A program made the translations under genes and the position numbers. From Bacteroidia bacterium (lineage in GTDB: Bacteria; Bacteroidota; Bacteroidia; B-17B0; Aurantibacillaceae), in contig JALHRL010000009.1 of the NCBI GenBank assembly GCA_022841465.1, positions 1 through 64,000 on the forward strand: a stretch of DNA of 64,000 nucleotides, written 5' to 3'. The notes under the pieces were generated by a model, which saw only the letters and a list, made by a program, of their open reading frames with translations, was not told the origin of the DNA and ran no database searches. Below, piece by piece: positions 16,681-24,133 of this stretch (positions are counted from its first letter, which is position 1; every line of letters starts with the position of its first letter).

Positions 16681-17643
16681 ATGAGAAAATTAATTACCAA
16701 AATCAGCCTTGCAATTGCAGGTTTTTCAGGTGTTTTAATGGCACAACAAGATCCTCAATTTACACAGTTTATGCACAATAAATTGTTGTACAATCCTGGA
16801 TATGCTGGCACAAGAGGCAATATTTGCGGTGTTTTACATTTCCGTAAACAATGGACAAGTTTCCCTGGTTCACCTCAATCAATCGCATTAACAGCAGATA
16901 TGCGCATTCCGGATATGCCATTAGGTGTAGGAATTAATTTTATGCAAGATGCAATTGGCCCTATGAAAACCGTATTTTTAAGAATTCCGGTTGCCTTTAA
17001 CATGGGTCTTGCAGGCGGAACTTTAGGTATAGGCTTAGATGTAGGTATGGTTCAAAAACAAATTAACGAAGCTTGGTTACCACCGGATGTTGGTATGGTT
17101 GACCCAAGAATTCCGGGCTCAGGAGATTGGGGTAATAATCCTGATTTAAATAAATTAACATTTGACGTTGGTTTTGGAGCCTTCTTTAGAAAGCATAACG
17201 AATTTTATGTAGGGCTATCTTCTACTCACTTACCTGCTCAAACTTTAAAGGGTGGCAACGATATTCAGTATAAAATGACTCGCCATTATTATTTAATGGC
17301 AGGTTATTATATTAAACCGGATCCTAGAAATTGGATTATTCCTAATATTATGGTTCGATCAGACGTTAACGCAACAGTTATTGATGCAAATGTAACTTAT
17401 ATGTGGGACCAAAAGTTTATTGCCGGTGTTACATACCGCCATACTGATGCTGTAGCCCCAATGATAGGTTGGCAACACGCAACGCCTACTGGTGTCGTAA
17501 TTAAAGGCGTTTATTCATTCGATAAAACCTTATCAAACATTAAAGGATATTCTAGCGGTTCTCATGAAATAACCTTAGGTGTGTGCTACACACTTAAGCA
17601 AAAGAAAATGGCTAGCTACGGCGATGATAGATTTTTAAAGTAA
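16681..17643 (+). CDS. porP: PorP/SprF-type type IX secretion outer-membrane protein
   Basis: A 320-residue beta-barrel-like protein with a signal peptide (about 1-22, cleaved after LMAQ) and the family opening DPQFTQFMHNKLLYNPGYAG. The body is rich in alternating aromatic and glycine strands and ends at KKMASYGDDRFLK. PorP/SprF proteins sit in the outer membrane; the one encoded upstream of gldK works with the type IX machine, and other SprF paralogues serve adhesin cargo. Its place directly before gldK matches the porP-K-L-M-N order of Porphyromonas, so the PorP name is favoured. A separate promoter lies between it and gldK. Confidence 0.88.
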   Translation: MRKLITKISLAIAGFSGVLMAQQDPQFTQFMHNKLLYNPGYAGTRGNICGVLHFRKQWTSFPGSPQSIALTADMRIPDMPLGVGINFMQDAIGPMKTVFLRIPVAFNMGLAGGTLGIGLDVGMVQKQINEAWLPPDVGMVDPRIPGSGDWGNNPDLNKLTFDVGFGAFFRKHNEFYVGLSSTHLPAQTLKGGNDIQYKMTRHYYLMAGYYIKPDPRNWIIPNIMVRSDVNATVIDANVTYMWDQKFIAGVTYRHTDAVAPMIGWQHATPTGVVIKGVYSFDKTLSNIKGYSSGSHEITLGVCYTLKQKKMASYGDDRFLK

Positions 17644-17697: not shown

Positions 17698-17728
17698 TTG
17701 TTAATAACTTTTAAAAATGTTACATTTG
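17698..17728 (+). promoter_or_regulatory. Promoter of the gldKLMN operon
   Basis: TTG at 17698-17700 and TACATTTG at 17721-17728 are 20 bp apart, a very good fit to the Bacteroidota -33/-7 arrangement. The expected start near 17732 leaves about 36 nt before the gldK ATG. Confidence 0.65.
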
Positions 17729-17767
17729 TAACCTTTAGTGTTAGTTGAAGTTATAAAAAAGAAAACT

Positions 17768-19312
17768 ATGAAAAAACTACTAATATTAGCTTCATTTGTT
17801 GCCGTAGTTGTAGGGTGTAATAAACACAGTGCAGAGTTGGTTGGCGTACAAGGTCGTGAAAAGTGGTATCAACCCGATCCGTTTGGTACATTATATATCC
17901 CTATGGGATCATATCACATGGGACCAGACGATGAGGAGGCACCTATGGCGCATACTACCAAATCTAAAATGGTTTCGGTTCAGGCGTTTTATATTGATGA
18001 TTCGGAAATTTCTAACAACGAGTACCGACAATTTGTTTATTGGGTGCGTGACTCTATTGCTCGTAAGTTATTAGCTTACGGTTCTAACGGAATGGCTGAA
18101 GATTATCAAATTTCTCAAGATGATTTCTTATCTGTTTGGCCGGTTTACAAAGGCGATAACAACCTTCAAGATCCATATATTAACTGGGAAAAGAAAATTA
18201 ACTGGGAAAGTGATGATGAAGATTATCGTGCAGACTTACAGCCTTTATATTTACCTGAAGGAGAGCGTTTCTATAACCGTAAGGAAATTGATACTCGTAA
18301 ATTAAACTACGAATATTATAGAATTGATATCCGCTTAGCTGCTTCTAAAGCCAATCGTTTCCGCGGAAATAAATCTGCTGACGTTCAAGATGCTGCTCAT
18401 GATTATAAAAAAGCAGATTATATTAACGGTGTTCACTTAAATGATGGACAAAATGGTGCTCCGGGTGGAGTTTCTACCGCAGTTGGTGATCCTGCAAAAG
18501 ACAGCAAAACATTAGGTACTTATAATGTAAAAGACCAAGAATCTATCGGAGCAGGTAATTACCGTGAGCGTGTAAGAAATGGTGTTGACCGTTCAGTATT
18601 TATCATTAAAGATGTAATCCCTGTTTATCCTGATACTTTAGCTTGGGTACATGATTATACCTATTCATTTAACGAGCCTTTAACAAACATGTATTTTTGG
18701 CATCCGGCTTATGATGATTATCCTGTAGTAGGTGTTACTTGGAAACAAGTTCGCGCTTTCTCAATCTGGAGGTCTTTATTATTGAACAATTATTTAATGG
18801 GTACCGGCCAATCAATCATCAACGATTTCCGTTTACCAACTGAATCTGAGTGGGAATACGCTGCTCGTGGTGGCCTGGATAAATCTCCATACCCTTGGGG
18901 AGGTCCTTATATCCGTAACTCAAAAGGATGTTTCTTAGGGAACTTTAAACCAATGCGTGGTTCTTATATAGATGATGGAGGATTCCATTCTGTATATATC
19001 TACTCATACAACCCTAACGATTACGGTTTATATTGTATGGCCGGAAATGTTTCTGAGTGGACAAGCAACGCTTATGATGAGTCAGCTTATGATTTCGCTC
19101 ACGATTTAAACCCTGATTACGTTTACGAAGCGCAAGAAAAAGATGCCAACGTATTAAAGCGTAAGGTAATTCGTGGTGGTAGCTGGAAAGACGTAGGTTA
19201 TTACTTACAAACAAGCGCAAGAACTTATGAATATCAAGATACTGCTAAGTGTTATTTAGGTTTCCGTAATGTATTGACTTATTTAGGTCGTGCAAAAGGT
19301 GACGATATTTAG
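17768..19312 (+). CDS. gldK: Type IX secretion lipoprotein GldK/PorK
   Basis: A 514-residue outer-membrane lipoprotein that forms the periplasmic ring with GldN. The chosen ATG gives MKKLLILASFVAVVVGC with the lipobox cysteine at 17; an upstream TTG would put extra residues before the signal peptide. Most of the chain is a formylglycine-generating-enzyme (sulfatase-modifying) fold: DSEISNNEYRQFV, PVVGVTWKQVRAFSIWR, DFRLPTESEWEYAARGG, GLYCMAGNVSEWT and VIRGGSW. In GldK this fold is structural, not catalytic. A Gly/Asp-rich stretch near residues 215-265 (LNDGQNGAPGG region) looks like an insertion compared with my memory of flavobacterial GldK. Confidence 0.93.
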   Translation: MKKLLILASFVAVVVGCNKHSAELVGVQGREKWYQPDPFGTLYIPMGSYHMGPDDEEAPMAHTTKSKMVSVQAFYIDDSEISNNEYRQFVYWVRDSIARKLLAYGSNGMAEDYQISQDDFLSVWPVYKGDNNLQDPYINWEKKINWESDDEDYRADLQPLYLPEGERFYNRKEIDTRKLNYEYYRIDIRLAASKANRFRGNKSADVQDAAHDYKKADYINGVHLNDGQNGAPGGVSTAVGDPAKDSKTLGTYNVKDQESIGAGNYRERVRNGVDRSVFIIKDVIPVYPDTLAWVHDYTYSFNEPLTNMYFWHPAYDDYPVVGVTWKQVRAFSIWRSLLLNNYLMGTGQSIINDFRLPTESEWEYAARGGLDKSPYPWGGPYIRNSKGCFLGNFKPMRGSYIDDGGFHSVYIYSYNPNDYGLYCMAGNVSEWTSNAYDESAYDFAHDLNPDYVYEAQEKDANVLKRKVIRGGSWKDVGYYLQTSARTYEYQDTAKCYLGFRNVLTYLGRAKGDDI

Positions 19313-19381
19313 TATTAATAAAAATAAACAAACACAAACAAACACAAAACACAAATCACTAACAACACAAAACACATCACT
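19313..19381 (+). promoter_or_regulatory. G-free A/C-rich spacer between gldK and gldL
   Basis: From the base after the gldK stop to the gldL start codon there is not one G, and after the first ten bases almost only A and C (repeated CAAACA and ACACAAA). Such RNA cannot fold with itself. It probably acts as an unstructured ribosome-entry leader for gldL. Confidence 0.5.
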
Positions 19382-20173
19382 ATGAGCAAATTAGGAAAAG
19401 TAACAGGTTTTAAAAGGTGGCTACACTTAGCATCTTGTTTTGGCGCATCAATCGTAATCGTTGGAGCATTATTTAAAATTATGCACTGGCCGGGTGCATC
19501 GGTTGCGCTTATTGCAGGTCTGGGTACTGAGGCTTTATTATTTATTTTATTTGGTATCGATATTCCTCATGAGGAAGTTGATTGGACTTTAGCTTATCCT
19601 GAATTAGCCGGTATGGGGCATGAAGAAGTTGTGGATGATCATTCAGGTTTACCTGTTTCTCAACAATTAGATAAAATGTTAGAAGAAGCAAAAATTGGCC
19701 CTGAGTTAATTGAAAGTTTAGGTGTTGGAATGCGTTCATTAAGTGACGCTTCTAATAAAATTGCTGATATTTCTGATGCTCATACAGCAACTAACGATTA
19801 TGTAACTAGTGTAAAAAATGCTTCACAAAGTGTTTCTACTTTAGCATCTACGTATCAAAAAGCGGCTCAATCTATGGAAGATCTTGCAAACTCTAATGAT
19901 GCAGGTTATTCAATTGGTGAGTCATTAAATAAGGTTTCTAAAAATTTATCTGCATTAAATGCAACTTACGAATTACAACTACAAGGAAGCAAAGATCATT
20001 TGGATGCTACTAATAAATTCTATGATGGTTTAGCTGACTTAATGAAAAATCTTCATGATTCAGTTGAAGATACTCGTAAGTACCGTCAAGAAATGTCAAC
20101 ATTGTCTAACAACTTAACTGCGTTAAATACCATTTACGGTAATATGTTAAGTGCAATGAACTATAACAAGTAA
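19382..20173 (+). CDS. gldL: Type IX secretion/gliding motor protein GldL/PorL
   Basis: A 263-residue inner-membrane stator-like subunit of the proton-driven GldLM motor. Two transmembrane helices lie near residues 15-34 and 40-56. They contain the family segment ALFKIMHWPGA and the acidic residue E50 in GTEALLF, the position of the glutamate known to be essential in Flavobacterium GldL. The rest is cytoplasmic and forms coiled coils (SLGVGMRSLSDASNKIADISDA and LNATYELQLQGS). From published structures the motor is GldL5-GldM2. Followed by a perfect hairpin before gldM. Confidence 0.95.
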   Translation: MSKLGKVTGFKRWLHLASCFGASIVIVGALFKIMHWPGASVALIAGLGTEALLFILFGIDIPHEEVDWTLAYPELAGMGHEEVVDDHSGLPVSQQLDKMLEEAKIGPELIESLGVGMRSLSDASNKIADISDAHTATNDYVTSVKNASQSVSTLASTYQKAAQSMEDLANSNDAGYSIGESLNKVSKNLSALNATYELQLQGSKDHLDATNKFYDGLADLMKNLHDSVEDTRKYRQEMSTLSNNLTALNTIYGNMLSAMNYNK

Positions 20174-20182
20174 AATTTAACA

Positions 20183-20214
20183 ATCGGTATTCGTATCTAA
20201 TTACGAATACCGAT
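20183..20214 (+). promoter_or_regulatory. Perfect 13-bp hairpin between gldL and gldM
   Basis: ATCGGTATTCGTA (20183-20195) pairs exactly with TACGAATACCGAT (20202-20214) around a 6-nt loop. No T run follows, so it is not a classic terminator. It may protect the gldL 3' end or reduce read-through. Confidence 0.75.
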
Positions 20215-20259
20215 GTTATATAAATAATTTATTCAAAAACCTTATAAAGAAACTACAAA

Positions 20260-21915
20260 ATGGGCGGAGGCAAAGAAACCCCAAGGCAGAAGATGATTGG
20301 TATGATGTACTTAGTACTTACCGCACTTCTTGCCATGAACGTATCAAAACAAATTTTACAAGGTTATTTAGCAGTTAACGAAAGTGTTCACAAATCAAAA
20401 CTTAACTTAATTGAAAATAACTCTCGTGTAATTAAAGCATTTGAGGCTACCATTAATGGTAACCCGGGTGCTAAACCTTATTACGATAAGGCTTTAGAAG
20501 CTCAAAAACAAATTGATGAGGTTTACAAGTATATTGGCCAAGTAAGAGCAAAAATTGTTGCTGCTACAGAGCCACTTTCTAACCAAGATGAAAAAATTGG
20601 TGATACTTTAAACTTGCGTAGAATGGAAAAGATTGACGACTATGATATGCCTAGTTATATCTTAGGTATTTCTGAGCCAAAAGAACCTAAAAAAGATCCT
20701 TTTACAGCTTATGATATGCGTCAGAAACTAAGTGGTTTAAGTGATAAGCTTATGACTATGTTGGATAACATGCAAAAAGATTCTAAGACCAAATTAATTG
20801 AAGACGATTACCAAGGTCTAAAGAAAAAATTAGCATCTATTAAACCTACAGATAGTAAACGTAAGGAAGATGGAATTGAGTTTAATTGGGAAATGGATAA
20901 CTTCTATCACTTACCATTAGCCGCAGTTTATACTAATTTAAACAAATTCCAAGCCGATTTAAAAAACCTAGAAGCAGAAATGCTTCAAGTATTAAGTGGT
21001 GCAAGTGGTAAATTAGCTATTAAGTTTGATAGGTTAACTGCAAAAGTAATTGCCCCATCTTCTTATATTCAAGCTGGTCAAGAGTACAAAGCAGATATCT
21101 TTTTAGCGGCATCTTCTAGTGCAATGACAGCTGATATGATGCAAGTATTAATGAATGCTGATTCAGCAACCGGACAAGGTGGTACACCAATTGATATTGA
21201 AGGTGGTATGGGTAAGTACTCTGTTAAAACCGGTGGTGTTGGAGAACAAACATATAAAGGGGTTATTAAGTTTAAAAAACCAGATGGTTCTTTTGATAAT
21301 TATCCTTTTCAAGCAACTTATATGGTGGCTGCTCCTTCTGCTGCTGTAGCGTTAGATAAAATGAATGTGTTTTATATAGGTGTACCTAATCCTATAAGTG
21401 TTTCAGCAGGTGGTGTTGCTCCAACTGATTTGCAAGTTAGCGGTACCGGCGGTATTAAATTAACGCCTAAGGGTGCCGGTAAATGGGAAGTTCAAGGTTT
21501 GTCTCCTGGAGAAGCTACAATTAACGTTTCTGCCAGAACTAAAGATGGTACAAAACCTCAAGGTTCATTTAAATTTCGTGTTAAGAAAATTCCAGATCCG
21601 GTTGCAAAAGTGGGTGGAAAATCAGGTAACGTTGATATGAAAAAAGTTGAATTGTCAGCTATTGGTGGTGTTGTTGCTGATTTACCCGGATTTGACTTTG
21701 ACGCTAAATTTGTTGTGACGGAATTTGAATTAACCGCGGTTGTAAAAGGCGCGTTAAAATCAGAGCCATGTAAAGGTAATTCTCTTTCAGGTGCTGCTCG
21801 CGGTATTTTATCTTCAGCAGGAGTTGGAAGTAAAATTTTTATTGAAAACGTAAAAGCTAAAGGGCCTGATGGAAGTATCAGAAACATTCCTGGCGTTACC
21901 ATTAAAGTAAAATAA
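20260..21915 (+). CDS. gldM: Type IX secretion/gliding motor protein GldM/PorM
   Basis: A 551-residue protein with one N-terminal transmembrane helix (about 12-35, MIGMMYLVLTALLAMNVSKQIL) and a long periplasmic part. The opening MGGGKETPRQKMIGMMYLVLTALLAMNV is the family signature. The periplasmic region contains a helical first domain (about 40-250) and then beta-rich domains, the last ones with the GldM C-terminal pattern (FYIGVPNPISVSAGG near residue 370). It spans the periplasm from the GldL ring to the GldK-GldN ring and transmits motor rotation. Its stop is 1 bp before the gldN ATG. Confidence 0.95.
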   Translation: MGGGKETPRQKMIGMMYLVLTALLAMNVSKQILQGYLAVNESVHKSKLNLIENNSRVIKAFEATINGNPGAKPYYDKALEAQKQIDEVYKYIGQVRAKIVAATEPLSNQDEKIGDTLNLRRMEKIDDYDMPSYILGISEPKEPKKDPFTAYDMRQKLSGLSDKLMTMLDNMQKDSKTKLIEDDYQGLKKKLASIKPTDSKRKEDGIEFNWEMDNFYHLPLAAVYTNLNKFQADLKNLEAEMLQVLSGASGKLAIKFDRLTAKVIAPSSYIQAGQEYKADIFLAASSSAMTADMMQVLMNADSATGQGGTPIDIEGGMGKYSVKTGGVGEQTYKGVIKFKKPDGSFDNYPFQATYMVAAPSAAVALDKMNVFYIGVPNPISVSAGGVAPTDLQVSGTGGIKLTPKGAGKWEVQGLSPGEATINVSARTKDGTKPQGSFKFRVKKIPDPVAKVGGKSGNVDMKKVELSAIGGVVADLPGFDFDAKFVVTEFELTAVVKGALKSEPCKGNSLSGAARGILSSAGVGSKIFIENVKAKGPDGSIRNIPGVTIKVK

Positions 21916-21916
21916 T

Positions 21917-22762
21917 ATGATAAAGAAAAGTTTAATAGTATTGTTGGCAGTTCTTATTTGCGGAAATGTATTTTCGCAAGGGCCTACCATCTTTAATCCT
22001 GGTGATTATAAAGATGCCATCTACGATAAAGAGAATGCTATTAATCGTAGGTATATTCCTTACACCCATCTTAGAGAAGGTGATGTAACTTGGGAAAAAC
22101 GTGTGTGGCGAGATGTGGATATGCGCGAGAAAATTAACCACCCCATGTATTTTCCAATAGAGAATATTACCGGAAGAATGTCTTTATTTCAAGTGCTTGC
22201 AAAGTATATTTTAAATGGTACACTTTTAGCTTTTGATTCGGAAGAGTTTATTAACCCATTTGAATTATCTCAAATCCGTGATAAAATAAAGAAATGTGAC
22301 TCTATTGAACAAAGTAACGTAGACGCTGAAGGAAATGAAATTTTAGTCAAAATTTTTGAGTGTGATTCTACTTCAATTTACCGAGCAATTAGAACTTATA
22401 AATTAAAAGAAGATTGGTTTTTTGATAAGCAAAAATCTGTTTTAGAGGTTCGTATCTTAGGAATTGGTGTATTTACATACGACGAAGAAAAAGAAGCGCC
22501 TAGAGAGCAATTTTGGGTGTATTTCCCTGCATGCCGACCATTGTTTGCCAAACATGAAGTATTTAACCCAAAGAATGATAGTGAAAGAAGAACTTTTGAA
22601 GATATTTTCTGGAAACGTCAGTTTAATAGTACCATTACAAAAGAAACAAATGTTTACGATCGTACCATAATGCAATATGCAAAAGGTATAGATGCTTTAT
22701 TGGAAAGCGATCGAATTAAAGGTGATATTTTTAGGTGGGAGCACGATTTATGGCATTTCTAA
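21917..22762 (+). CDS. gldN: Type IX secretion ring protein GldN/PorN
   Basis: A 281-residue periplasmic protein with a signal peptide (about 1-20, cleaved after NVFSQ). Family features are YTHLREGDVTWEKRVWRDVDMREKINHP, a middle FPIENITGRMSLFQ segment and the C-terminal VYFPACRPLFAKHEVFNPKND then RRTFEDIFWKRQF. It binds GldK to form the outer-membrane-associated ring through which cargo passes. It is the last gene of the operon, separated by 1 bp from gldM and followed by a strong terminator. Confidence 0.95.
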   Translation: MIKKSLIVLLAVLICGNVFSQGPTIFNPGDYKDAIYDKENAINRRYIPYTHLREGDVTWEKRVWRDVDMREKINHPMYFPIENITGRMSLFQVLAKYILNGTLLAFDSEEFINPFELSQIRDKIKKCDSIEQSNVDAEGNEILVKIFECDSTSIYRAIRTYKLKEDWFFDKQKSVLEVRILGIGVFTYDEEKEAPREQFWVYFPACRPLFAKHEVFNPKNDSERRTFEDIFWKRQFNSTITKETNVYDRTIMQYAKGIDALLESDRIKGDIFRWEHDLWHF

Positions 22763-22779
22763 TTTGAAATTAATACTTT

Positions 22780-22808
22780 AAGCCCCGATTTATCGGGGCT
22801 TTTTTTTA
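22780..22808 (+). terminator. Intrinsic terminator of the gldKLMN operon
   Basis: AGCCCCGA pairs with TCGGGGCT around a 4-nt loop, followed by eight T. It is the expected 3' end of the type IX operon. Confidence 0.9.
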
Positions 22809-23992: not shown

Positions 23993-24083
23993 AAACGGTT
24001 TAAATGTTTAGCAAATATATAAATTTTGTTGAATAGTGAAATTTCAAATTAAATAAATTACAGATAATTGTTAGTTAAAAACA

Positions 24084-24117
24084 AAAACCACCGGTTAATT
24101 AACCGGTGGTTTTTGTT
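24084..24117 (-). terminator. Intrinsic terminator of trxA
   Basis: A perfect 30-bp palindrome (AAAACCACCGGTTAA and its complement) lies 17 bp after the trxA stop, with T-rich flanks on both strands. It mainly serves trxA. Confidence 0.85.
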
Positions 24118-24133
24118 TTGTTATTTCTGAGTT

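Follow-up and report, generated by a model that had tools for sequence, protein, structure and literature searches.

A probably selected, non-terminating RNA hairpin between gldL and gldM in a type IX secretion operon of the Bacteroidia

Introduction

How can two motor proteins that are needed in unequal amounts be supplied by one operon? According to the accessible part of PMC8754138, the motor of the type IX secretion system (T9SS) is composed of five GldL/PorL and two GldM/PorM subunits; motors of this 5:2 type are also reviewed in PMC9389320, as far as its accessible text goes. Yet GldL and GldM are both read from one operon. In the accessible text of the open-licence literature, we found no explanation for how the GldL:GldM ratio is set, and the open-licence papers gave no report of a hairpin between gldL and gldM. 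Here, we analyzed one stretch of 64,000 nucleotides from a Bacteroidia bacterium (hereafter, the window), in which an earlier note had pointed to a hairpin in the gldL-gldM gap.

Results

The gldL-gldM gap of the window contains a strong hairpin

In the window, porP, gldK, gldL, gldM and gldN form a type IX secretion operon, and every gene scores above its NCBIfam cut-off (Table 1). The gap between the gldL stop and the gldM ATG is 86 nt in length (20174-20259). As the earlier note had described, it contains one perfect 13-bp inverted repeat with a 6-nt loop (20183-20214); the two arms are 100% complementary, and the longest T run at the hairpin foot is only 2. The same note had recorded a 1-bp gldM-gldN gap (21916) and a gldK-gldL gap without structure, and our analysis agreed with both. 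The hairpin extends beyond the perfect core, and none of 100 shuffles gave a hairpin as good as the extended one. The RNA of the whole gap has a minimum free energy (MFE) of -21.8 kcal/mol, compared to a mean of -6.19 for 200 shuffles (z -6.64), none of which reached the native value. The strength of the window hairpin is far beyond chance.

Table 1. Positions of the type IX secretion genes and of the structures in and around their gaps
Feature	Position	Strand	Evidence or property
porP/sprF-family gene, upstream of gldK	16681..17643	+	TIGR03519, 216.8 bits, cut-off 90.55
gldK	17768..19312	+	TIGR03525, 546.6 bits, cut-off 350
gldK-gldL gap, internal control without structure	19313..19381	+	MFE 0.0
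gldL (T9SS motor protein PorL/GldL)	19382..20173	+	TIGR03513, 215.1 bits, cut-off 68.3
Extended intercistronic hairpin, 17 pairs, one bulged A	20178..20218	+	dG -21.0 kcal/mol
Perfect 13-bp core, 5' arm	20183..20195	+	100% complementary to 20202-20214
Core loop, 6-nt, TCTAAT	20196..20201	+	
Perfect 13-bp core, 3' arm	20202..20214	+	
A/T-rich gldM leader, 41 nt, hairpin foot to ATG	20219..20259	+	unpaired in predicted fold
gldM (T9SS motor protein PorM/GldM)	20260..21915	+	TIGR03517, 307.9 bits, cut-off 180
gldN, 1 bp downstream of gldM	21917..22762	+	TIGR03523, 183.3 bits, cut-off 85.9
Hairpin 3' of gldN, then T run	22780..22801	+	resembles ordinary intrinsic terminator

Stems of this kind were also counted in the window together with 20 stretches of 20 kb from the same genome (464 kb in all), taking plain, uncurated open reading frames as genes. 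In this sequence, 39 stems reach a length of 11 bp, and 27 of these are intergenic; shuffled sequence has 14 in all. Fourteen of the intergenic stems are located in gaps between co-directional genes. T runs were scored in the final 5 nt of the arm plus the 8 nt that follow; that of the gldL-gldM stem is the shortest (2), while those of the others are 3-9. A dispersed or REP-type repeat was rejected, as a search of both strands of the 3.77 Mb genome gave no match to the gap other than itself; the 13-nt arm recurs exactly at one further site, as a single arm. The corresponding gap of one relative (L045) likewise has one match in its genome (G078). A known RNA family was rejected as well, with no Rfam match at the gathering score in the window.

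The hairpin recurs in part of the family

From the genomes of relatives, which include metagenome-assembled ones, 258 loci were gathered; 257 of them have the gldL-gldM pair (L098 does not), and merging of repeats left 175 distinct gaps. An order-level search returned the same 87 genomes and added none. A gap was counted as hairpin-bearing at a dG of -9 kcal/mol or better, and the shuffle test allowed at most 1 of 60 shuffles to be as good. Forty of the 175 distinct gaps reach this dG, and 35 pass the shuffle test too; one earlier pass with a slightly different test gave 34 strong hairpins among 123 gaps. At the dG threshold, the window's family (f1) accounts for 32 of its 78 gaps. By genus, these are 14/16 in g10, 6/8 in g7, 5/5 in g9, 3/3 in g4, 1/1 in g5 and 3/38 in the window's own genus g1, with none in g2 (0/2), g3 (0/3), g6 (0/1) and g8 (0/1). 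The second family, f21, has 5 of 12 in genus g30 (2 of these strong), and the unlabelled rows have 3 of 28 (2 of these strong). None of the 57 gaps from other labelled families of the class has the hairpin.

The 35 hairpin-free g1 gaps are flanked by gldL and gldM like the rest, and together with the 57 gaps of the other families they indicate that the motor does not require the hairpin. The gldK-gldL gap served as control; such a hairpin is present in 8 of 151 of these gaps, and in 1 of the 32 hairpin carriers for which that gap was covered. The earlier note had held that stemless close relatives would speak against its reading, and the relatives are divided on this point: the hairpin is present in G006 and G024 (87% GldL identity), but absent in G010 (about 85% over 139 residues), in G017 (84%) and in most of the genus. 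On a tree built by a quick method from GldL and the initial part of GldM (99 rows), the hairpin trait changes at least 15 times and does not track the genus labels. Two long-branch joins are flagged in this tree, and gain and loss of the hairpin are therefore indistinguishable on it. On the same tree, the window (L003) clusters with rows of g10 and apart from most of g1, the genus to which it belongs; this placement may reflect poor resolution or an exchange of gldLM across genera.

Pairing is kept while the letters change

Because the stems were selected for pairing, each is completely paired with itself, and the weight rests on aligned groups. When the 5' arm of one species was matched to the 3' arm of another, the 35 hairpins paired at 0.49, which equals the random expectation; a sequence-specific operator was rejected on this ground. 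Pairs were counted on two alignments, A5 and A2, because some stems are out of register in A1 (MAFFT, 13 g10 gaps) and A4 (ten g10 stems). The counts leave out the other nine g10 rows of A1, the f21 alignments, g4 and g9. A5 comprises 4 of the 13 g10 rows (L045, L151, L156 and L048), picked for in-register flanks and stem. It has 16 pairs, 5 of which are changed on both sides, and 98.4% of its cells are paired; sliding the partner drops the pairing to 37.5-62.3%. None of 500 shuffles reached its covariation score of 0.521. A2 contains six g7 gaps, two of them with a shorter stem, and gave a weak result: 80.0% of cells are paired, compared to 78.2% in shuffles (91 of 500 as high), and 112 of 500 shuffles matched its covariation score. 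Sliding drops its pairing to 37.4-61.4%. The earlier note had proposed to look for a stem kept with changing bases in related genomes; this is what part of the family displays (A5), although the signal is weak in A2 and 35 of 38 g1 gaps are without the hairpin.

In 118 loop-aligned comparisons within genera, which are not mutually independent, changes on both sides are more frequent than changes on one side in 109, with 787 and 114 changed pairs, respectively. Since a majority of two-sided changes is expected from unrelated stems too, most weight falls on the close pairs; between L151 and L156, 9 pairs are unchanged, none is changed on one side and 3 are changed on both sides. The fast turnover and the dominance of two-sided changes would also fit perfect stems that are a functionless product of mutation, with template switching converting near-palindromes into palindromes. 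We regard this origin as highly improbable. The two-sided excess is weak evidence by itself, since unrelated stems would give the same, and the process would be expected to operate in other gaps too; however, the gldK-gldL gap is mostly stemless, and T runs of 3-9 accompany the other 13 co-directional stems. Hairpins kept at one spot with differing letters suggest that the shape itself matters, and pairing, not sequence, appears to be under selection. Taken together, the RNA hairpin is very probably real and selected.

The hairpin is unlikely to act as a terminator

Like a Rho-independent terminator, the window hairpin is a strong, short-loop stem located after a stop codon; different from it, the hairpin has no T run at its foot and lies inside an operon. 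With the longest run being 2, an ordinary Rho-independent terminator was set back as the main reading. Among the 35 carriers, the longest T run near the foot is 2-3 in 27, 4 in 3 and 5-7 in 5; these five stems may be terminators. To the T-less gldL-gldM hairpin of the window, the hairpin after gldN with its T run (Table 1) forms a contrast. The corresponding site could be checked in relatives: for 18 of the 35 carriers the locus spans 5 kb or more, and the gldN end is readable in 15 of the 18. In each of these 15, a hairpin folding at -13.9 kcal/mol or better follows gldN within 150 nt, and its T run is 6-8 in 12 of them. The three exceptions score 1-2; mismatches break the T-rich arm in L046 and L068, while in L042 the best score went to a second stem, and the stem adjoining gldN has a T run of 6. 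This lineage thus seems to terminate using T runs. Further downstream in the window, at positions 24078-24119, two 21-nt arms adjoin directly in a perfect palindrome that is probably a terminator.

A partial terminator (attenuator) that lowers read-through into gldM would find a strong stem in a suitable position, and in the five carriers with T runs of 5-7 also a fitting foot. Nevertheless, we consider it quite unlikely, given the run of only 2 or 3 in 27 of 35 carriers (2 in the window) and the runs of 6-8 that 12 of 15 carriers place after gldN. Slowed read-through, one of the two actions suggested in the earlier note, is weakened accordingly, as the absence of a T run speaks against an ordinary terminator. 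The pairing kept despite changed letters, together with the short T run, indicates that the window element is probably a selected, non-terminating intercistronic RNA hairpin.

The hairpin precedes an unstructured gldM leader

The foot of the hairpin is 35-47 nt from the gldM ATG in 33 of 35 carriers, with outliers at 24 and 57; the distance from the gldL stop to the hairpin is 0-25 nt in carriers. The last 40 nt before gldM in the 35 carriers have a mean G+C content of 13% and a mean MFE of -0.3. In the hairpin-free gaps of other families, the whole gap has a median length of 45 nt (range 24-98, n=57). The hairpin looks like an extra block in front of a leader some 43 nt long, a length near that of the whole hairpin-free gap.

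These distances, the similar length of the hairpin-free gaps and the lack of structure in the final 40 nt would also be expected if the hairpin were part of the gldM leader. It would then mark where a fixed landing site of about 43 nt without structure begins, and would either influence the translation of gldM or stabilise the 5' end of a processed gldMN mRNA. This reading is improbable in our judgment. The distance from the loop centre to the ATG (sd 6.4) varies no less than that to the gldL stop (sd 5.5), and a conserved leader alone would fix the spacing. In eight loci (L066, L067, L068, L069, L073, L075, L076 and L079), a second small hairpin is located directly after or across the gldL stop; its letters differ in several species.

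A promoter-like motif occupies many hairpin-free gaps

Many hairpin-free g1 gaps contain GTAAC and, 14 nt on, G[AT]ATTAT or a similar element. Among the 46 non-hairpin gaps of f1, GTAAC is present in 19, and in 18 together with the second half, the spacer being 14 nt in 15 of the 18. The promoter-like pattern (GTAAC plus the spaced A/T-rich element) is found in 18 of 38 g1 gaps, one of which also has the hairpin, in 5 of 8 g7 gaps, and in none of the 16 g10 gaps, 14 of which have the hairpin. TGTAAC is further present ahead of gldK: of 71 distinct porP-gldK gaps, 58 have it (5.0 expected), several of them twice. In the window, TGTAAC with a spaced TTATA-like element lies at 17727-17755 before gldK; it is the single full-pattern match, which is no more than chance, as 0.65 matches are expected in the whole window. 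In the T9SS operon, the TGTAAC motif before gldK may act as an ECF-type promoter. The TGTAAC/RTTATW pattern was derived here, and we take it to be of ECF type by its likeness to familiar -35 patterns. In the accessible part of PMC4800418, T9SS genes of P. gingivalis are under the ECF factor SigP, with a suggested motif that differs.

Could the spot be an internal promoter for gldMN, with the inverted repeat as its by-product or operator? The pattern in the g1 and g7 gaps, its regular spacer, its presence before gldK and the SigP control of T9SS genes in P. gingivalis (PMC4800418, accessible part) favor this reading. However, TGTAAC-N14..18-RTTATW is absent from the window's gldL-gldM gap, on which ground a promoter there was rejected; the g10 gaps, most of them hairpin-bearing, have no match either, and the stem letters show no operator-like conservation. 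An internal promoter is therefore a very unlikely account of the hairpin. In L069 (2439) and L079 (2441), the porP-gldK gap contains a comparable hairpin of 11-13 bp, ATCATCATACT...GATGATTT, ahead of gldK, and several other porP-gldK gaps of the same group have related letters.

Discussion

Among the mechanisms by which a selected, non-terminating hairpin could act here, we judge selective RNA processing and stabilization (SRPS), giving more GldL than GldM, to be the best, with about an even chance of being correct. We place it first because of the 5:2 motor, the cip-cel precedent discussed below, and the PNPase and RNase E/G genes, which are present in the genome. By SRPS, the porP-gldKLMN transcript would be cut in the unstructured A/U-rich leader just 3' of the hairpin. 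The hairpin would then block 3'-to-5' exonucleases on the gldK-gldL part, and the gldM-gldN part would be left without hairpin protection. Such unequal protection would yield more GldL than GldM, as the motor of five GldL and two GldM needs. The locus shows two of the features that SRPS calls for, namely an intergenic stem-loop within the operon of a multi-subunit complex, and a structure that is kept with changing bases, if weakly in A2 and not in the 35 g1 rows; SRPS would further entail an RNA processing site beside the stem and unequal stability of the two parts. Evidence that counts against SRPS comes from the hairpin-free g1 gaps, many of them with the promoter-like motif, from the 57 hairpin-free gaps of other families, from the weak A2 result, from the five carriers with T runs of 5-7 and from the at least 15 changes of the trait on the tree.

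A broader idea, possible though rather doubtful in our view, is that the ratio of GldL to GldM synthesis is set by an RNA element that is defined by shape alone, has free letters and lies about 43 nt upstream of gldM, and that an internal promoter replaces the element where it is lost. The hairpin shape may perhaps serve to supply two motor parts in unequal amounts; kept exactly at the gldL-gldM junction, it is a simple element for removal and testing.

Non-terminating hairpins 3' of a cistron that is needed in excess are known from the puf operon of Rhodobacter and from the enterobacterial REP elements (as in malE-malF), and the gldL-gldM hairpin shares this arrangement. REP elements are dispersed repeats, whereas the gldL-gldM gap matches only itself in the genome. 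Closer in kind is the cip-cel operon, although it comes from a different phylum and encodes a different machine. In the accessible parts of PMC4423207 and PMC10311766, intergenic stem-loops at the 3' ends of its processed RNAs accompany the subunit ratios. There, processing sites and RNA levels were measured, whereas the gldL-gldM hairpin is known from sequence, predicted folding and covariation. Both systems place stem-loops in the gaps of an operon for a multi-subunit complex (PMC10311766, accessible part). Like the gldL-gldM hairpin, the cip-cel stem-loops also vary between species, in number and strength, and the cluster of C. cellulovorans reportedly uses internal promoters (PMC10311766, accessible part), which is comparable to the promoter-like motif that many g1 gaps have in place of the hairpin.
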